Below, one piece after another: positions 1 to 39,583 of a stretch of DNA of 64,000 nucleotides. The DNA comes from Chitinophaga lutea. Its GTDB lineage: Bacteria > Bacteroidota > Bacteroidia > Chitinophagales > Chitinophagaceae. The stretch spans positions 1 through 64,000 of the forward strand of contig NZ_RPDH01000001.1 of the NCBI RefSeq assembly GCF_003813775.1. The letters run 5' to 3'. Below the pieces are notes generated by a model that saw only the letters and a list, made by a program, of their open reading frames with translations, made no database searches and was not told the DNA's origin. Position numbers and translations under genes: made by a program. Numbering within the stretch: position 1 is the first letter of the stretch; every line of letters starts with the position of its first letter.

Positions 1-141
1 ACAAAATCAAAAGGCGCCTTCCAATCCGAAGACGCCCTAATGAAACTTTTATTCCTCGTTCAGGAAAATATCTGCGCTAAGTGGAACAAACCGGTTCACA
101 ACTGGAATCAGACGCTTGCTCAACTATTACAGCATAAATGA
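1..141 (+). pseudogene. IS256-family (mutator-type) transposase, C-terminal end, cut by window edge
   Basis: The reading frame is open from the first base to TGA at 139-141 and gives 46 residues. They match the pattern of the C-terminus of IS256-family transposases: TKSKGAF near the start, then a DALMKLLFL stretch, then KWNKPVHNWNQTL. In that family the segment follows the catalytic DDE domain, which here would lie outside the window. It cannot be told whether the upstream part is intact. No terminal inverted repeat could be recognised in the 76 bases after the stop. It sits next to the AT-rich peptide locus and suggests that locus arrived with, or was bordered by, an insertion sequence. Confidence 0.75.
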
Positions 142-217: not shown

Positions 218-592
218 TTAGTCAATGATTAAGGCCCTTTTTTTACTAATTATTTTATTGGCTTCATTAGTTTTTTCTGGTAATAAATGTGTATGAAAAA
301 AGACGGTTTTGTCACCATGGTTGGTTTTAACTCTAAAGCTACCTGCTCCAACTTTATGCGGTTTGAGATCCAGGAAGCCAGGTCGAATACTGGCCTCAAC
401 GTCCGAATTTGGTAAGATTGAAATAATCTTAATTTTTGTACTGTCGAAGTAGAGATGATTTTTGGTAGCTAGGTACAGATGATTTGCCTTTTTTTCATTA
501 CTCTGATAAACTTGACTTTTCTGCAAATGCCAATTTTCAATGGGAGCCATTAAGGATAAAGGCAGGATTAGGAGAATATTGACAATATTCAT
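218..592 (-). CDS. Small exported protein of unknown function, last gene of peptide operon
   Basis: This 124-residue product has a short hydrophobic N-terminus (residues 1-17, about MNIVNILLILPLSLMAP) that could be a signal peptide, followed by a soluble, Lys-rich domain. Residues about 39-100 (LYLATKNHLYFDSTKIKII... then FRVKTNHGDKTVFF) read like a small beta-sandwich and loosely resemble the repeat domains of GldM-type proteins, but that likeness is weak. Its ATG overlaps the stop codon of the upstream TlpA-like gene as ATGA (589-592), so the two are probably translationally coupled. It is the last gene of the VKOR/peptide operon. It is AT-rich like its neighbours. Function unknown. Confidence 0.6.
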   Translation of the reverse strand: MNIVNILLILPLSLMAPIENWHLQKSQVYQSNEKKANHLYLATKNHLYFDSTKIKIISILPNSDVEASIRPGFLDLKPHKVGAGSFRVKTNHGDKTVFFHTHLLPEKTNEANKIISKKRALIID

Positions 593-1884
593 TTGGAAGT
601 GAATTTTATTTTGTTCAACAAAAAGGATTCTATTTTATAAAGGCCACCTCCAGTCTCCCTCATTACTATATTCCCTTCCTTATTTACTAGAATGTAGGTA
701 GGGTATGAAATTAAACTCATTGGTCGCAGTGGATTGTTTGAATTTGATATATTTACGAAATAATCTGTTCTGGAACTGTTTTTGCTTTTTAAAACGCTTT
801 TGGTTCCCTGAATATTGTTTGTATATTCGCAAGCGATGCCGATTATTGTAAGTGTATTCTTGTCGAACTTTCTTTTTAGTATAGAAAGAGAATCAAAATC
901 TCGGATGCAAGGCATGCACCAGGATCCCCAAAAATCTACCAAATAGTACTCTGTAGAACTGCTGCCGTTCAAAATATAGTTGCTTACAGCGGTATCCGAT
1001 ACTAAAGGCAATTTCAAGTCGATAAAGCGTTGCCCGATACGGTAGTTGCTGACTGGATGAATGGTATCCCTGATGTATTTTAGTATTAGATACTCTCCAG
1101 ACGGTGATATGCTATCAACTGAGACCTTATATGGAGGAATTGAAATCTGAGTTCTCAGATGATAGGGTAAAACTTCTTTGAAATCAATTTTTTGTAGAGG
1201 ATGGCCTGGCTTAGAAATATTTATAGTAACATTTCTACCAACGTAGCCTTTTCGGGCAAGGCTCATCCTAGCCTCAACGGCAACGGGTTCGATCCCGTCC
1301 AATCGAAACATTCCCTTCGCACTATTATTGTGAAGAAGTTGAAGATCGAGTGTTATATTGCCGCCAAAGCGTTTTATTAACGGCTTCAACTGAAAGTCAT
1401 ATGCTGATCGAGAAATGATCTTTCCCTCCGCCATTTCTAGCGTGGAGGAAAGATTATATAAGTTTCCTGAATTTACAATCAATTGTTCTGAGCTGCTAAA
1501 TATTCCATTATTGTCCCTATCTATTAGAAGATAAGCGGTTGAATCTGTTTCAGCTGGCCTCAGTAAAAATTGAATCGCATTTGGTTTGGCAAAAGTGGAT
1601 GTGGTGTCGATATTGTAAGTCTTAATAAGCGTTTTGACGCTGTCTAATGGTAATCCCCCTTTCTCAATAAGCTCATGATAATAAGAGTTTATATCGTGTA
1701 TATACGTAAAATAAATTGACTCGTCGGGGCTAGCATATGTTGTGCCTGACTTCTTTACCAAAGCCTGATTCGTAGAAATGTTTGAAACATTCCCCTTTGT
1801 TTGTTGTAATGGTACAACTTTAGTTTCTTGTGCTGATGCCGTAAAAGCCAAGGCTATCAGAAGGTTTGCAATAAGTATGCGCAT
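589..1884 (-). CDS. TlpA/ResA-like thioredoxin-fold protein, exported
   Basis: This 431-residue protein starts with a clear signal peptide (MRILIANLLIALAFTASAQ). Residues 20 to about 290 form a region without a recognised domain; it contains an EF-hand-like DRDNNGIFSSSEQ stretch. The C-terminal ~130 residues are a thioredoxin fold of the TlpA/ResA type: VDFWGSWCMPC with active-site pair C323-M-P-C326, and a cis-proline strand SYPTYILVN further on. Such proteins work in the periplasm as thiol-disulfide reductases or isomerases. It follows the second peptide gene by 59 bases and overlaps the next gene by 4, so it belongs to the same operon as the VKOR-thioredoxin and the Cys-rich peptides. A role in folding or proofreading their disulfides is inferred from that context. 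Confidence 0.85.
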   Translation of the reverse strand: MRILIANLLIALAFTASAQETKVVPLQQTKGNVSNISTNQALVKKSGTTYASPDESIYFTYIHDINSYYHELIEKGGLPLDSVKTLIKTYNIDTTSTFAKPNAIQFLLRPAETDSTAYLLIDRDNNGIFSSSEQLIVNSGNLYNLSSTLEMAEGKIISRSAYDFQLKPLIKRFGGNITLDLQLLHNNSAKGMFRLDGIEPVAVEARMSLARKGYVGRNVTINISKPGHPLQKIDFKEVLPYHLRTQISIPPYKVSVDSISPSGEYLILKYIRDTIHPVSNYRIGQRFIDLKLPLVSDTAVSNYILNGSSSTEYYLVDFWGSWCMPCIRDFDSLSILKRKFDKNTLTIIGIACEYTNNIQGTKSVLKSKNSSRTDYFVNISNSNNPLRPMSLISYPTYILVNKEGNIVMRETGGGLYKIESFLLNKIKFTSK

Positions 1885-1943
1885 TCTTGGAAATTAAAGT
1901 TTCGGGACGAACTGATTGCCCGCCCCGAAACAATTTGTACCAC

Positions 1944-2168
1944 TTAGTCACAAGGACAATATTCAGTATCACCGCAGTAAACAGATTCCCTTTCTGGGTC
2001 TGCGTAGCAACTTACGCCAAGTCCACAATCTTTCGTACCATAAGTATTCTTGTTTTTGCACCAAACGGAACAGATTGAGGGTGCGTCGCCTTCGCCGCCC
2101 GGGTTAGTAACCTCACCTCCAAGAATATCTTTCATTTGTTCTTTACTTAAAGTGATGACATTTTTCAT
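1944..2168 (-). CDS. GG-leader Cys-rich precursor peptide B
   Basis: This 74-residue product has the form of a secreted natural-product or bacteriocin-type precursor. The leader, MKNVITLSKEQMKDILGG, ends in a double glycine at 17-18 with the usual LS-x-x-x-M-K-x-I-L pattern before it. The core (residues 19-74) holds seven cysteines (two near 33 and 37, then about 48, 54, 65, 71 and 73) and is acidic. The odd number implies one free, paired or modified Cys, or a dimer. It lies 17 bases after the sister peptide gene and 59 before the TlpA-like gene. No modification enzyme of the lanthipeptide or radical-SAM type is nearby; the only linked chemistry is disulfide exchange. Precursor identity is well supported by the leader; activity is unknown. 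Confidence 0.75.
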   Translation of the reverse strand: MKNVITLSKEQMKDILGGEVTNPGGEGDAPSICSVWCKNKNTYGTKDCGLGVSCYADPERESVYCGDTEYCPCD

Positions 2169-2185
2169 CGGTAAGAGTTTAGTTG

Positions 2186-2452
2186 TTAAACATATGGTTC
2201 ATCGCTATTCCGGCGTTCATTACACGACACGGACTTTACTTGCCCTCCTTCGGAACAGTAAGCGTATCCATTGGCGCCACCTCCATAATCGTTTGCTGTA
2301 CATCCTGCATCCGAATTTGGACAAGTAATTGTTACAGAGCCTCCACCCTCACACATTGCCGTAGCTGCGCAAGCTCCTCCAATTGATCCTCCCATGATGG
2401 ATTTCATCTCTGACGAACTAAGGGACTTAATTTGGGTTTTGTTGACCGTCAT
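2186..2452 (-). CDS. GG-leader Cys-rich precursor peptide A
   Basis: This 88-residue product has an N-terminal leader, MTVNKTQIKSLSSSEMKSIMGG, with double glycine at 21-22. The leader shares the LS-x-x-x-M-K-x-I-[LM]-GG pattern with the following peptide gene. The core is rich in Gly, Ser and Ala, with six cysteines (in GAC, AMC, ITC, AGC, AYC and VSC contexts), enough for three disulfides. It ends in a charged tail, NERRNSDEPYV. It lies 93 bases downstream of the VKOR-thioredoxin gene on the same strand, in an AT-rich setting. Cleavage after GG by a C39-type peptidase is expected from the leader class, but no such peptidase with intact catalytic residues is encoded in this window. Confidence 0.78.
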   Translation of the reverse strand: MTVNKTQIKSLSSSEMKSIMGGSIGGACAATAMCEGGGSVTITCPNSDAGCTANDYGGGANGYAYCSEGGQVKSVSCNERRNSDEPYV

Positions 2453-2545
2453 AAATTCCAGTTGTATTTATTTTTTAATATGGGTACTCTTTTTTTTCGA
2501 GGTTCGTATCATCTCCTCGTTTAATCGATCGAATTAAAAGTGTGA

Positions 2546-4156
2546 CTATGTTTGAAGTAGTATTGTTTTTAAGTCTTCAATACTATAACGATCCGGCAAT
2601 TTTTTTCCATTGATATAGAACGTTGGAGTGTGCGATATTTTGGCATCCTCACACCACTTCTCCATGGATTTTATTCTCTTATCAATGTCGGTCGGGATTT
2701 TATGTGTACCGTTGCTCGCAAACATTGCTATATCTTTTATAGGTGCTTCATACCATTTTGAAAGAAGTTCAGAGAATTTTTCAGGGCCTTCAGTTTCTTG
2801 AGTTGAAATGAAATGCCTTACGGGCGCTGTTCGCGGATCTCCTTCGTGAGTACTCGCTGTAAAAATGATACGCATGTTTACATTACTATTTACCTTAAGT
2901 ATTTGCTCTAATGGGTGGTGTGCTTTTGCGCATGGGCCACAATACGGATTGCAAACCTTTAGGATTGTAATTGATGCGTTTGGATTTCCAATTAACATTC
3001 CTATCTCACGCCATCCTTCCGGCGCCGAAGTTTCCCGGTTGAGCTGATGATTGAAATAGTCGGGGCTGTTCAGGATTCGTTTATATGCATACTTATATCT
3101 TTTCTCGTTACTGGCCTTTATGAAGATTCTCTTCAGTGACTTCCAGCAAACAACCGGGAGTAGTAATGCGATTATTACTGGAAAGAGAAATATCGGTGAG
3201 AATTGTCGGAATGCTGAAAATTGATACTGATTCAATGAAGCGAGTGCAATGATTAATTCTACGATCAATGTGACTTGGATTCCCAGGCATAACGGACAAA
3301 ATTGTTTTACTACTTTAAATTGATAGTAAAAGCTGAAAATTATGAAAGGAGTCGCTGCTAATGATAAACTAGCCAGCAATGCTCCTTTGAAGGGGGTGGT
3401 TATTTCGCTACTTAATAGTATAATTGCTGTTGAGAAAAAATAGTAGAATCCGATTTCACTCCAGGTATGACCCCAAATCTTTGCGCCTTTACTTTTAAGC
3501 ACTGCATCACAGTTTAATTCTTTGCTGCCAGTGCATATGTTTTTTATTAAAGAGTTACTTTTGTCGACTTCGTAAGTTAGTAACAGCGTTGTAATTATTG
3601 CACCAAATAGTTTTAGCGCCAGTAGAGGTACGAAAATTTTGGAATCCCCAATGGAGAGTATCGAAAAGTATTTTCCAAGTATTAAGAACAGAATAATAAT
3701 ACCTCCAACAATTGGAAAGGAAAGTTTCGACCTTAGAAATGAAGATAATTTTGTTTGCGTATTCTCTTTAGGAAGATTTTTCCCTTGCAATATTATGCCT
3801 TGATAGGAGCTGATAAATTGCTCTCGGGATACCGAAACTTTCTTCCAGTGTCCTGAATAGTAATTAACGCTAGTTTTAGAAATCTCTGTGACAATGACGA
3901 AATCCTTGCCTGTGGGTAAATTTTTAAGATAGGTTATAAACGGCGGCGTGAAATCAAATACCGAGTCGGTTTCCACCGCATATGCGTTATTCGTAACACC
4001 GTTTCGATGAAGTATATCACTTAGCGAGTAAAGCGACGGATAGTCAGGATGTACCTGCAGCTGCTCTGCAATATTTATTTTATCTAGCGGGATATTTAAA
4101 AGTTCGGAATATTTTGCGCCAACAAGAGGTAGGCGGGTATTAAACTCAAGCGCCAT
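2546..4156 (-). CDS. VKOR-thioredoxin fusion with degenerate C39-like N-terminal domain (copy 1)
   Basis: This is a 536-residue inner-membrane disulfide-forming protein. Residues about 1-125 follow the fold pattern of C39 (double-glycine) peptidases: HPDYPSLYSLSDIL, then PPFITYL, DFVIV, and a final EQFISSYQGIIL. There is no catalytic Cys in that stretch and no His in the HFV-type position, so it cannot be a working protease. Residues about 145-345 are a VKOR-type multi-helix membrane domain with the loop cysteines C208 and C216 and the quinone-side pair C287-P-L-C290. Residues about 380-536 are a DsbA/thioredoxin-like domain with C402-NPY-C406-G-P-C409 and a HTPTFYINGKKLP cis-proline motif. 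VKOR passes electrons from protein thiols to quinone. First gene of the operon with two Cys-rich peptides and a TlpA-like protein. A paralogue lies at 37967-39583. Confidence 0.88.
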   Translation of the reverse strand: MALEFNTRLPLVGAKYSELLNIPLDKINIAEQLQVHPDYPSLYSLSDILHRNGVTNNAYAVETDSVFDFTPPFITYLKNLPTGKDFVIVTEISKTSVNYYSGHWKKVSVSREQFISSYQGIILQGKNLPKENTQTKLSSFLRSKLSFPIVGGIIILFLILGKYFSILSIGDSKIFVPLLALKLFGAIITTLLLTYEVDKSNSLIKNICTGSKELNCDAVLKSKGAKIWGHTWSEIGFYYFFSTAIILLSSEITTPFKGALLASLSLAATPFIIFSFYYQFKVVKQFCPLCLGIQVTLIVELIIALASLNQYQFSAFRQFSPIFLFPVIIALLLPVVCWKSLKRIFIKASNEKRYKYAYKRILNSPDYFNHQLNRETSAPEGWREIGMLIGNPNASITILKVCNPYCGPCAKAHHPLEQILKVNSNVNMRIIFTASTHEGDPRTAPVRHFISTQETEGPEKFSELLSKWYEAPIKDIAMFASNGTHKIPTDIDKRIKSMEKWCEDAKISHTPTFYINGKKLPDRYSIEDLKTILLQT

Positions 4157-4572: not shown

Positions 4573-5079
4573 ATGGCATCGTTCAATTTTTCCCCAGTAC
4601 TGCTCGCCCTCCTTCTTTCGGGCATTACATACGTCCTGGTATATCTCTTTTTCATAAGGACGAAAAACTTCAACAAAAAGGAAATACCCGTGCCCATCGT
4701 TCAAGCTGCCGGCGTGAGGGAGTCTGTATCTCCCTCCTTTAGCCACCGCCTGCCCACCTACGAACGCCGTGAACCTGAGATATACTTAACGGAGGATGAC
4801 GATATCGGCGAACTGGAGCTGGTGGAAGACGATTCGAGCATCCTCCTTAAAGAAGCGGAATCCGTCATCGATCAGATCTCCGCGGTGATCGATAATATCG
4901 CCTCCCAACCGGCGAATCCCGCCGAGGTATTCACGAAGATACGTGCAATCGTGAGCCAGTACAGTATTTTCCAGGGCACCGAGTTCTACGATGCCATTAA
5001 CCGGTACGTGGCCGTGTCCGTCGAGCGCGAGCTGGCATTGCGCTTTACCGAAGCGGAGCTGTCAGAAATGTGGGCGTAG
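4573..5079 (+). CDS. Membrane-anchored hypothetical protein of conjugative element remnant
   Basis: This 168-residue product has one N-terminal transmembrane helix (about residues 8-28, PVLLALLLSGITYVLVYLFF) followed by a basic stretch (RTKNFNKK). It continues with a soluble acidic linker (EDDDIGELELVEDDSS) and a helical C-terminal part with no recognised motif. It lies 113 bases before a DUF4134/TraE fragment on the same strand, a position that in Bacteroidota conjugative elements is held by small membrane proteins of the transfer operon. I do not recognise a named family. It appears full length, with no frameshift, even though the element around it is deleted. Confidence 0.6.
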   Translation: MASFNFSPVLLALLLSGITYVLVYLFFIRTKNFNKKEIPVPIVQAAGVRESVSPSFSHRLPTYERREPEIYLTEDDDIGELELVEDDSSILLKEAESVIDQISAVIDNIASQPANPAEVFTKIRAIVSQYSIFQGTEFYDAINRYVAVSVERELALRFTEAELSEMWA

Positions 5080-37570: not shown

Positions 37571-37744
37571 TTAAGCAAGCCCAAATCTGTAACATTCATC
37601 ATCTCGAAATCCGGCGGCCACCACCTCCATGTTGACCCGGATTAGGCCATCCTCCCCGGAACTGTCCGGGAAGCCTGCGCCACCATGCAGGTGACGCAGG
37701 CTGTTGCTGCTGAATCCTTTGAAGAAATGCGCTTTTACGCTCAT
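37571..37744 (-). CDS. GG-leader precursor peptide D (57 codons, below usual gene-calling size)
   Basis: ATG 37744 opens a 57-residue frame. Its leader, MSVKAHFFKGFSSNSLRHLH, is followed by GG at 21-22. It closely parallels the leader of the adjacent peptide gene (MKTHLFRTLSRNSLRAVNGG): H-[LF]-F-[RK]-x-[LF]-S-x-N-S-L-R-x-x-x-GG. The short core starts AGFPDSSGEDGLIRVNMEVV and ends DDECYRFGLA, with a single Cys. It lies 18 bases after peptide C on the same strand. The 3' half of the gene is the part repeated at 30421-30474. The shared leader makes it a real gene in my view, but whether the core is intact or shortened is open. Confidence 0.6.
   Translation of the reverse strand: MSVKAHFFKGFSSNSLRHLHGGAGFPDSSGEDGLIRVNMEVVAAGFRDDECYRFGLA
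37588..37649 (-). repeat. Imperfect ~55-bp repeat, copy 2 (after ECF/FecR/TonB operon)
   Basis: The plus-strand sequence begins CTGTAACATTCATCATCTCG and runs through CCGGCGGCC to GACCCGGATTAGGC. It matches 30421-30474 in the same orientation. This copy overlaps the 3' part of peptide gene D. Together the two copies bracket the ECF/FecR/TonB/lipoprotein operon as imperfect direct repeats. Confidence 0.55.
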
Positions 37745-37762: not shown

Positions 37763-37948
37763 TCATTCCCCGCTCTCGCACCAGGTATCCATCATGCAAC
37801 TGCAAACAGGGCCCGACATTGCGCATTCAATAAAGTCAATATCGCCGAGGCAGCGGAAGTCGCCACAGGAGGCACTCCATTGGGTGCTGCCTCCATTTAC
37901 AGCGCGAAGGCTGTTTCTGCTGAGGGTTCTGAAAAGATGCGTTTTCAT
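37763..37948 (-). CDS. GG-leader Cys-rich precursor peptide C
   Basis: This 61-residue product has the leader MKTHLFRTLSRNSLRAVNGG, with double glycine at 19-20. The core of 41 residues opens STQWSASCGDFRC and ends CSCMMDTWCESGE. It holds six cysteines, enough for three disulfides, and is acidic. It starts 18 bases after the stop of the VKOR-thioredoxin gene on the same strand, so co-expression is likely. The leader differs from those of the first locus (LS-x-x-x-M-K-x-I) but the gene arrangement, VKOR fusion then two small GG peptides, is the same. Confidence 0.75.
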   Translation of the reverse strand: MKTHLFRTLSRNSLRAVNGGSTQWSASCGDFRCLGDIDFIECAMSGPVCSCMMDTWCESGE

Positions 37949-37966: not shown

Positions 37967-39583
37967 TTAATAACCAATATCGTTCATGCACGCTGTTCCC
38001 GGTAGCGGCTGCAGGGCAATCTCCGAAGCCGCCAGGATGGGCACCAGGTGCATCAGGTCTTTCAGTATGTAGTTCTTCGGCATTTTGCGGCCGTTGACAT
38101 AAAAAGTGGGTGTGCCCCTGACGCCTGCCTCATTCATCCATTTGCGATGCGCCACCAACTGATCTTTTACATCGAGCGAAGCGTTGTATTGCCAGCGCTT
38201 GCTCCATTTGTCCATATTCATGTATCTGAACCAGTCGGCCAGCATGCGCCTCACCTCTTCGCCCGGCTGCAAACCGCGCGCACACTGGAAGATGGCCGTT
38301 ACTGCCCTGGCGATGTTCTCTGCGCGGTCTTCCATGCTGAGGAAGCGCACCTTGATAAATACCTGGTCTTTACAGGTTTCATAGATCTCGTCGAGCACCC
38401 TGTGTGCGTATTGGCAGGGCCCGCAGAAAGGGTTGCAGGCCACCACTATTTCCAGTGCGGCACCAGGGTTGCCGAAATGCAGTTCGTGCGGCATCGTGGC
38501 GGTATCTACCTGCTGCATGCGTTCCCACTGGGTAATGAAAAGCAGCGGGTCGCGCTTCCACCTGAGCAGGTCTTTGGCATGATCGCGTTTTTCCTTATCG
38601 TCTTTCAGCTGCGCTTTGACCGGCTGCATGGCAAGGCAGAGAATAGCCTGCACCGCGAGGAAATACCCGGTGGTAACGGGCTGCAGCACGGAAAAGGCGT
38701 CGTTGAAACCGGCGAAGGCCAGGGCGCTCTGCCCGGTGAGCACGCCCGCGATACCAAGGCAGAGGGCACACCATCTCTTCAGCCTGAATTTCTGTACGAT
38801 CACGCTGACGCCGGCCACGAGAAGGAGCGGCATTGCAATCACCATTTGCGTGGCCATGAGGGCGGGATACCAGGCGGCAGCCACAAAAAAGATAAACTGG
38901 GCCAGGAAATAGGAAAGTGCGAGATCGGCTACGGTAACGCCGCCATAGACTTTGGCGAGGTTACTTTTGAGTACGGCTTTACAACCCGCCCTCCCGCCGA
39001 TGGAGTTGCAAACTTCGTTCACAATGCCGATCTGCAGGCCCAGCTCAGTAGTGATGGTGAATATGCCGAGGGTAAGCCCGGCCAACGTAAGGACGCCCCA
39101 TGTGAGCGGCGCCAGGCCCGGGTTAAAGCTGAAGGCCGCACCCACGGCGGCCAGCACCAGCAAGCCGGCGATGATACCGATAGCAGCGAAAGCATGCTGC
39201 CGCTGCAGCAGTTTCGTATTCTCCGGCACTTCCCAGCGGGCCTTTTCGCCGGCAAACAACACGATGCCGCTCCAGTTGTGGCGAAGCTTTTCGTCGGTCT
39301 CGAAAGCGGCGGGCCCGTCTACCTGCATCAGGTAATCGCTGCCCCCGTCGTTCACATATGCCAGCAGCGGGTAGTTGAAATCCGGGATGCCCGCTCTTTC
39401 ACTTTCGACAGCATAATACTGCATACCGCCCATATCTAAAAAGTCGGTAAGCGAAACCAGCGACGGATAGTCAGGATGGGTTTGCAACTCTCTGGCGATA
39501 AATTCCTTATGGGTTTTAATGCCGAGGCTTCGCAGCCAGCGTCGGGCAATGTCTTCAAAAATGATTCGAGGGTGCTTTTTCAT
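37967..39583 (-). CDS. VKOR-thioredoxin fusion with degenerate C39-like N-terminal domain (copy 2)
   Basis: This 538-residue membrane protein has the same three parts as the protein at 2546-4156. The N-terminal C39-like region (about 1-115) has ELQTHPDYPSLVSLTDFLDMGG and YPLLAYVNDGGSDYLMQV, with no catalytic Cys. The VKOR domain (about 130-325) has loop cysteines C192 and C201 and the pair C272-A-L-C275. The thioredoxin-like domain has C383-NPF-C387-G-P-C390 and RGTPTFYVNGRKMP. It also carries a few extra cysteines (C420-x region and the C-terminal TACMNDIGY). It would oxidise thiols in the periplasm and pass electrons to quinone. First gene of an operon with two GG-leader peptides. GC content matches the host, unlike copy 1. 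Confidence 0.88.
   Translation of the reverse strand: MKKHPRIIFEDIARRWLRSLGIKTHKEFIARELQTHPDYPSLVSLTDFLDMGGMQYYAVESERAGIPDFNYPLLAYVNDGGSDYLMQVDGPAAFETDEKLRHNWSGIVLFAGEKARWEVPENTKLLQRQHAFAAIGIIAGLLVLAAVGAAFSFNPGLAPLTWGVLTLAGLTLGIFTITTELGLQIGIVNEVCNSIGGRAGCKAVLKSNLAKVYGGVTVADLALSYFLAQFIFFVAAAWYPALMATQMVIAMPLLLVAGVSVIVQKFRLKRWCALCLGIAGVLTGQSALAFAGFNDAFSVLQPVTTGYFLAVQAILCLAMQPVKAQLKDDKEKRDHAKDLLRWKRDPLLFITQWERMQQVDTATMPHELHFGNPGAALEIVVACNPFCGPCQYAHRVLDEIYETCKDQVFIKVRFLSMEDRAENIARAVTAIFQCARGLQPGEEVRRMLADWFRYMNMDKWSKRWQYNASLDVKDQLVAHRKWMNEAGVRGTPTFYVNGRKMPKNYILKDLMHLVPILAASEIALQPLPGTACMNDIGY

Follow-up and report, generated by a model that had tools for sequence, protein, structure and literature searches.

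A C39-like/VKOR/thioredoxin fusion beside double-glycine-leader, cysteine-rich peptides in Chitinophaga lutea: a candidate leader-docked disulfide system predicted to face the cytoplasm

Introduction

What does a disulfide-forming enzyme of the VKOR–thioredoxin type do beside genes for small, cysteine-rich peptides with double-glycine (GG) leaders, and on which side of the membrane does it do it? The question is raised by a five-gene operon on the minus strand of a stretch of 64,000 nucleotides of Chitinophaga lutea (RefSeq assembly GCF_003813775.1, four contigs, 6.6 Mb), hereafter the window. The operon, at window positions 218–4156, lies at the end of contig NZ_RPDH01000001.1 (C1), base 1 of which is the window start. 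Its genes are, in operon order:

2546..4156, minus strand: C39-like/VKOR/thioredoxin fusion 1, 536 amino acids (open reading frame (ORF), Pfam, AlphaFold model, cysteine alignment)
2186..2452, minus strand: precursor peptide A, GG leader, 88 amino acids, 66-residue core with 6 cysteines
1944..2168, minus strand: precursor peptide B, GG leader, 74 amino acids, 56-residue core with 7 cysteines
589..1884, minus strand: TlpA/ResA-like thioredoxin-fold protein (WCMPC), 431 amino acids, with a signal-peptide-like start
218..592, minus strand: protein of 124 amino acids (ORF), overlapping the TlpA-like gene by 4 bases

The layout given in the original prediction for this locus, namely a single strand, spacings of 93, 17, 59 and –4 bases along the operon and two GG-leader precursors with 6 and 7 core cysteines, is confirmed by the ORFs, as is the AT-richness of the operon (GC content of 0.35–0.47 across the five genes versus 0.54 in window positions 5000–37000). 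The further proposal of a dedicated disulfide-peptide system, working without the classical modification enzymes of ribosomally synthesised and post-translationally modified peptides (RiPPs), is also supported, none of these enzymes being found by Pfam among the five proteins. The answer reached here is that the operon probably makes two disulfide-stabilised, bacteriocin-like peptides by leader-docked, quinone-coupled oxidation before export. That the locus serves peptide disulfide formation is, as judged by comparison between genomes, very likely; that it does so by a cytoplasmic, leader-docked mechanism is a strong prediction, which we favour with reasonable rather than high confidence.

The fusion enzyme

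Fusion 1 matches three Pfam families above their cut-offs, VKOR (PF07884, 64.8 bits, cut-off 27.5), Thioredoxin_4 (39.5 bits) and Peptidase_C39 (27.3 bits), in agreement with the VKOR–thioredoxin fusion first proposed, and its AlphaFold model has a mean pLDDT (predicted local distance difference test) of 87.6. The following parts are recognised:

3770..4150, minus strand: dead C39-like domain, residues 3–129, proposed leader dock
3659..3715, minus strand: extra transmembrane helix TM0, about residues 148–166 (149–167 by hydropathy, 146–166 as a helix in the model)
3224..3643, minus strand: VKOR domain, residues 172–311
2549..3037, minus strand: DsbA/ScsC-like thioredoxin domain with CGPC, residues 374–536

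Besides matching the VKOR profile, the protein has both cysteine pairs of that family (208, 216, 287 and 290), and these, together with cysteines 406 and 409, are invariant in all 76 aligned full-length fusions of the survey described below. The N-terminal domain has the papain-like C39 fold but lacks the catalytic cysteine and histidine, for which reason an active C39 protease was rejected. The same holds for the group, as the catalytic cysteine is retained in 1 and the histidine in 2 of the 76 fusions, versus both residues in 49 of 49 exporters. The first domain of the fusion is a catalytically dead C39 fold, a point overlooked in the original prediction. By fold it matches GG proteases, among them, to judge by their titles, a protease with leader (6mpz) and PCAT1 structures with substrate, and the likely role of the dead domain is that of a putative leader dock.

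Neighbourhood of the fusion in Bacteroidota

The spread of the fusion was searched for with the three fusions of the C. lutea genome as the profile. Matches were obtained in 31 of 195 genomes of the family set and in 42 of 395 genomes of the phylum set, the latter spanning seven families, with the C. lutea genome counted in both sets. The two sets form the survey, whose 120 VKOR entries comprise 76 full-length fusions with a C39-like domain, 36 VKORs without it and 8 split or partial entries that were set aside; L076 and L077 (C39-like domain only) and some C39-only or broken matches were left out of the counts. The 36 controls are 34 recognised VKOR genes, from 40 of the VKOR places that the profile had not matched, plus L072 and L074. 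Named genomes were scanned as well, the 80 best of 230 places being kept, and yielded 78 fusions, found in Chitinophaga, Mucilaginibacter, Pedobacter, Sphingobacterium, Hydrotalea, Parapedobacter, Sediminibacterium and others; this set partly overlaps with the survey (e.g., Hydrotalea flava), and the two are not fully independent. In a protein search, 695 relatives were recovered among 7,999 candidates scored, and 116 of the 120 listed (query included) carry VKOR, C39 and Thioredoxin_4 together. In the CDD, VKOR proteins that carry a C39 domain at the N-terminus form the subfamily VKOR_4.

The check suggested with the original prediction, a search for GG-leader genes beside VKOR–thioredoxin proteins with a C39-like domain across Bacteroidota, turned out positive. 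ORFs strictly matching the pattern of a GG leader with cysteines (GG-Cys ORFs) are found no more than 3 kb from 36 of the 76 fusions and from none of the 36 VKORs without the C39-like domain; with strict or loose matches on the same strand, the counts are 43/76 and 4/36. A C39-type exporter is present within 7 kb of 52 of the 76 fusions, a figure that includes one generic ABC protein (L071.1), versus 0/36 controls, and when the DCG motif is required an exporter is found anywhere in the fetched piece for 53 of the 76 entries. HlyD proteins occur within the same 7 kb of 45 of the 76 fusions and of no control. Among the 78 named-genome fusions, 41 have strict GG-Cys ORFs, 48 a C39 exporter and 70 a peptide (strict or loose) or an exporter.

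Membrane topology

The usual view of VKOR–thioredoxin enzymes places their action outside the cytoplasm, and the rival that survives best, although we consider it unlikely, is built on this established knowledge: the fusion would be an ordinary VKOR–thioredoxin with its active site outside, oxidising the peptides at the exporter exit together with the TlpA-like protein, and the C39-like domain would be a relic or an exporter dock. The TlpA-like proteins encoded within 7 kb of 37 of the 76 fusions (versus 3/36 controls) fit this version. The features of the fusion itself speak against it. One hydrophobic helix among the six of fusion 1 (TM0, residues 148–166) precedes the VKOR fold and lies outside the VKOR match at 172–311; by a hydropathy threshold it is detected in 66 of 76 survey fusions and 72 of 73 named-genome fusions, versus 1 of 24 controls. 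Because of this extra helix, the N- and C-terminal domains are predicted to lie on one side of the membrane, and a periplasmic active site would require the 145-residue N-terminal domain to be moved across the membrane although, by eye, no signal peptide is evident.

The distribution of lysine and arginine points the same way. It was compared with that of 24 VKOR–thioredoxin proteins of the 36 controls (single-domain VKORs, other lengths and L188 being left out) and with the named set, in which 73 of the 78 fusions were long enough and one more was dropped for poor cysteine alignment. Without the cysteine loop, the mean number of Lys and Arg residues on the active-site side is 8.62 versus 0.80 on the other side in the survey fusions (larger in 76/76) and 8.04 versus 0.90 in the named fusions (larger in 72/72), whereas in the controls it is 1.46 versus 5.25 (smaller in 22/24). 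With the cysteine loop included, the fusions have 12.84 versus 0.80, the active-site side still being larger in 76/76 and 72/72, and the controls 3.21 versus 5.25, with the active-site side larger in 4/24 and equal in 1. Applied to this pattern, the positive-inside rule predicts that the dock, the VKOR cysteines and the thioredoxin of the fusion all face the cytoplasm, the reverse of most controls and not the arrangement of a periplasm-facing VKOR–thioredoxin. The original prediction had spoken of two periplasmic thiol-redox proteins; this fits the TlpA-like protein, by its signal-peptide-like start (judged by eye), but is not supported for the fusion, in view of the extra helix and the inverted charge.

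By the loop reading, the two exceptions among the controls are L072 and L074, both of which fall inside the fusion clade (clade support 0.776). They keep the inverted charge pattern without a C39-like domain, have no GG peptide, TlpA or C39 exporter nearby, and have in common another neighbour gene of about 230–250 amino acids. A VKOR of the other orientation would have a precedent in Aeropyrum pernix, whose VKOR topology is said, in the title of a 2017 paper by Hibender and colleagues, to promote disulfide formation in two subcellular compartments; we know of no C39-like domain or peptide partner for that enzyme.

Direction of the reaction

Less probable again is that the fusion works in the opposite direction, or isomerises, keeping the peptides reduced or shuffling their disulfides, with the TlpA-like protein as the oxidant. 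It draws on the CGPC motif, which is typical of reducing thioredoxins, on TlpA/ResA proteins, which are often reductases, and on the best fold matches of the thioredoxin domain, which include ScsC and DsbG besides BdbD and DsbA. Both VKOR cysteine pairs are, however, invariant in 76/76 fusions, and since these are required for quinone-linked oxidation they count against such a reading, which we hold to be improbable.

Three fusions in one genome

The window holds a second fusion, which the original prediction had not linked to the first, with two small ORFs behind it:

37967..39583, minus strand: second C39-like/VKOR/thioredoxin fusion, 538 amino acids (VKOR and Thioredoxin_4 above cut-off)
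37763..37948, minus strand: GG-leader peptide behind the second fusion, 61 amino acids, 6 core cysteines
37571..37744, minus strand: GG-leader ORF behind the second fusion, 57 amino acids, 1 cysteine

The second fusion is of normal GC content and has no Pfam match to C39, its C39-like domain being recognised by a local hidden Markov model (64.7 bits). The strict GG-leader ORFs of the whole window number four, two per VKOR fusion and all behind the fusions, while 200 first-order Markov resamplings of the window give a chance level of 0.27 such ORFs per window, and of 0.045 for those with at least 4 cysteines. Behind a third fusion, at C1:405633–407255, lie the genes for two GG-leader peptides, each with 8 core cysteines, for two TlpA-like proteins and for a C39-peptidase ABC exporter, together with glycosyltransferase-like genes. 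GG-leader, cysteine-bearing ORFs are found behind every one of the three VKOR fusions in the genome.

These copies bear on the possibility that the fusion serves the cell at large in disulfide or redox chemistry and stands beside peptide genes by chance or through a shared island history, as the AT-rich character of the operon might suggest. That each of the three in this genome is accompanied by small ORFs of its own argues against it, and so do the exporters beside the 52 fusions mentioned above. Strict GG-Cys ORFs adjoin the fusions in six of seven families, and a loose one does so in the seventh. The density of strict GG ORFs with at least 4 cysteines in the loci of this genome and of the family set falls with distance from the fusion, from 13.05 per 100 kb over the first 3 kb (27 ORFs) to 3.29 at 3–6 kb (6 ORFs) and 1.25 beyond 6 kb (2 ORFs), so that 27 of the 35 matches are at most 3 kb away. 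A general role is, in our estimate, very improbable. Readings as a lanthipeptide or radical-SAM RiPP locus (precursor models below cut-off and no such enzyme among the five operon proteins), as an anti-phage defence (only weak PADLOC matches, to the 124-residue protein) and as a glycocin locus (no glycosyltransferase in the operon by Pfam) were rejected.

The precursor peptides and the TlpA-like partner

Peptides A and B have the leaders LSSSEMKSIM-GG and LSKEQMKDIL-GG, respectively. A protein database search with both peptides returned no relative (only peptide B itself), and no Pfam- or PDB-based name was found for them. Against NCBIfam models for rSAM-modified RiPP and class I lanthipeptide precursors the peptides score below the cut-offs: 17.2 and 13.7 versus 25 for TIGR04149, 16.5 and 13.5 versus 27 for NF038158, and 12.9 versus 22 for NF038153. 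With NF047798, a 'bacteriocin-like protein' leader, peptide B reaches 16.0 versus 23.5, and one of ten related peptides scanned, from L148, passes (39.8).

Relatives are present in the loci compared. Peptide B has 43% identity to a peptide in each of L266 and L257 (pairwise BLAST E values of 1e-17 and 1e-14), and peptide A has 32% and 35% identity to relatives in L266 and L257, respectively. The block of peptide A, peptide B and TlpA is kept in three genomes, namely in the window, in a Chitinophagaceae metagenome-assembled genome (L266) and in Sphingobacterium multivorum (L257), with the fusion immediately 5′ of the peptide pair in the window and L257, and about 3.6 kb further on in L266. Cysteine spacing is well conserved for peptide B; for peptide A it is well conserved in the relative from L257 but less so in the one from L266. 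Since in both L266 and L257 the two relatives adjoin in the same order before a TlpA-like gene, peptides A and B are taken to be real genes that probably act as a pair.

The number of core cysteines is even in 44 of 48 strict survey peptides with at least 4 of them (6 in 26, 8 in 11, 4 in 7, and 7 in 4) and in 53 of 57 strict peptides of the named set, which is the expectation if all cysteines pair. These counts leave out peptides with fewer than 4 cysteines and merge only identical ones, so that close relatives are each counted.

The TlpA-like protein of the operon, a second redox protein named in the original prediction, is just under the Pfam cut-offs (Thioredoxin_8, 26.4 versus 27; AhpC-TSA, 25.9 versus 26). 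In the survey loci, 35 of 64 TlpA-like genes are directly 3′ of a same-strand GG-Cys peptide (strict or loose), and 12 of 64 have one directly downstream. GG-Cys peptide and TlpA-like genes alternate in pairs in L047 (four pairs), L010, L069, L106 and L110, and this arrangement may mean that each peptide has a TlpA of its own, perhaps for immunity or peptide-specific folding. A recurrent core type, starting with CCAH...W and ending with CC..C or CC.C, is seen in the different genomes of L010, L063 and L064 (and, by BLAST cluster, of L062).

Proposed mechanism and the points against it

According to the mechanism that we favour, the GG-leader precursors would be made in the cytosol, where the dead C39 domain would bind the leader and so tether them to the membrane. 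Oxidation of the core cysteines would then fall to the thioredoxin domain, predicted to lie on that cytoplasmic side too, and the electrons would travel by way of the VKOR cysteine pairs to the quinone pool. Once folded, the precursor would be handed to a C39-type ABC exporter, supplied in this genome from another locus, which would cut after GG and export the core. In the periplasm the peptide would meet the TlpA-like protein, for proof-reading or for protection of the producer, and might finally act as a bacteriocin-like molecule.

Several points weigh against this scheme. The cytosol is reducing, and disulfides are normally not made there. A C39-ABC exporter is present neither in the operon nor in the window, the nearest one found being at C1:394430, about 390 kb away; the genome holds four strong C39 matches, none of them in the window, in open frames of 727–743 amino acids, a length that fits complete exporters. 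The core of peptide B contains 7 cysteines, and among 68 strict or loose peptides with at least 4 cysteines 6 have 7 and 1 has 5 (both the 68 and the 48 above include peptides beside split fusions, and the 68 may include loose matches beside controls). One of the GG-leader ORFs behind the second fusion has a single cysteine. As to topology, TM0 is weak in 10 of 76 fusions, a crude hydropathy count ranges from five helices (16 fusions) through six (42) and seven (17) to eight (1), and the active-site loops were set after the pattern of the window protein had been seen, then applied unchanged elsewhere. With 12 of 76 fusions, neither a recognised peptide nor an exporter is found in the fetched piece (some pieces being short), which also favours the general redox enzyme considered above. 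Finally, part of the contrast in adjacency may be due to lineage, because most of the 36 controls belong to other families of the phylum, and their genomes may lack C39 exporters altogether.

Comparison with known systems

The original prediction knew of no described system with this gene set and missed a related one, the bacteroidetocins. The loci of these class IIf bacteriocins encode a GG-leader peptide with 4 cysteines, a five-transmembrane protein labelled as unknown, a thiol oxidoreductase and an ABC exporter with C39 peptidase; toxin activity is attenuated when the peptide, transmembrane or thiol oxidoreductase gene is deleted, and bacteroidetocins A and B are mature peptides of 42 amino acids with leaders of 15 (Coyne et al., 2019; PMC6671954). 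Compared by description, both systems belong to Bacteroidetes, combine a GG-leader cysteine peptide with a thiol oxidoreductase and a polytopic membrane protein, and would work alike. The window operon differs in having no C39-ABC exporter, and the C39-like/VKOR/thioredoxin fusion stands in place of a transmembrane protein separate from the oxidoreductase, with mostly 6–8 cysteines and longer leaders in the peptides.

With the VKOR of Synechococcus (PDB 3kp9, 4nv2) the fusion has in common the four-helix VKOR fold, two cysteine pairs and a fused thioredoxin. Unlike that enzyme, it carries an N-terminal C39-like domain and TM0, and its charge pattern is inverted relative to the controls of the phylum, the active site being predicted to be cytoplasmic. 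The C39 peptidases of PCAT and LahT and the C39-like domain of HlyB (structure 3zua) have the same fold as the N-terminal domain; in those proteins its partner is an ABC exporter, whereas here it is joined to a disulfide-forming enzyme.

In glycocins (sublancin, with BdbB), a GG-leader peptide, a C39 exporter, a dedicated oxidoreductase and a glycosyltransferase are encoded in one cluster, and the BdbB-type enzymes are extracytoplasmic; the window operon differs in having no glycosyltransferase by Pfam. Fusions accompanied by GT25-like or other glycosyltransferase-like genes are seen in L010 (1104–15780; by Pfam, a GT25 gene above cut-off and weaker glycosyltransferase-like genes), L233, L257 and L299 (the last three by eye), and L010, L233 and L257 also have a C39 exporter. 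These clusters possibly encode glycocin-like, glycosylated disulfide peptides in Bacteroidota.

Among titles and openings of abstracts, none relevant joined VKOR with C39, bacteriocins, double-glycine leaders or RiPPs, and no literature on GG leaders of Chitinophaga was found. The parts available of PMC10352776, PMC13289728 and PMC7268733 do not mention VKOR or thioredoxin, and those of PMC4555120 do not mention peptidase fusions or Bacteroidetes.

Other features of the operon

Two hairpins accompany the genes:

1899..1931, minus strand: hairpin (14 pairs, 8 of them G-C) and T-rich tail in the gap that separates the genes of peptide B and the TlpA-like protein, possible attenuator
11..38, minus strand: terminator-like hairpin with a T-rich tail, 3′ of the operon

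The scan for them found 5 such sites versus 4.1 expected, so that hairpins of this kind occur in near chance number. The one at 38..11 suggests that the operon ends before the contig does, and the one at 1899–1931, as an attenuator, could set a high ratio of peptide to TlpA, an idea that is suggestive only. The 124-residue protein has no Pfam or NCBIfam family and no relative among the loci compared. A conserved protein of about 110–140 amino acids in L010 (13788–14120), L052, L054 and L073, with similar ones by eye in L233 and L266, is possibly a winged-helix regulator, given a sub-threshold helix-turn-helix match.

Implications

For the family as a whole, we lean, if only slightly, towards seeing in these fusions widespread membrane-bound maturases of Bacteroidota, which would form disulfides in the cytosol, recognise leaders through the dead C39 domain in the manner of a RiPP recognition element, oxidise through an inverted, quinone-coupled VKOR–thioredoxin, and pass pre-folded peptides to C39 exporters. 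If this is true, bacteria would possess a leader-guided disulfide enzyme that works inside their reducing cytosol and is coupled to respiration, and the presence of a dead C39 domain in these VKOR proteins would be explained. Families of cysteine-rich secreted peptides are easily located in genomes by way of the fusion, which, if functional in a laboratory host, might become a tool for the production of disulfide-rich peptides.

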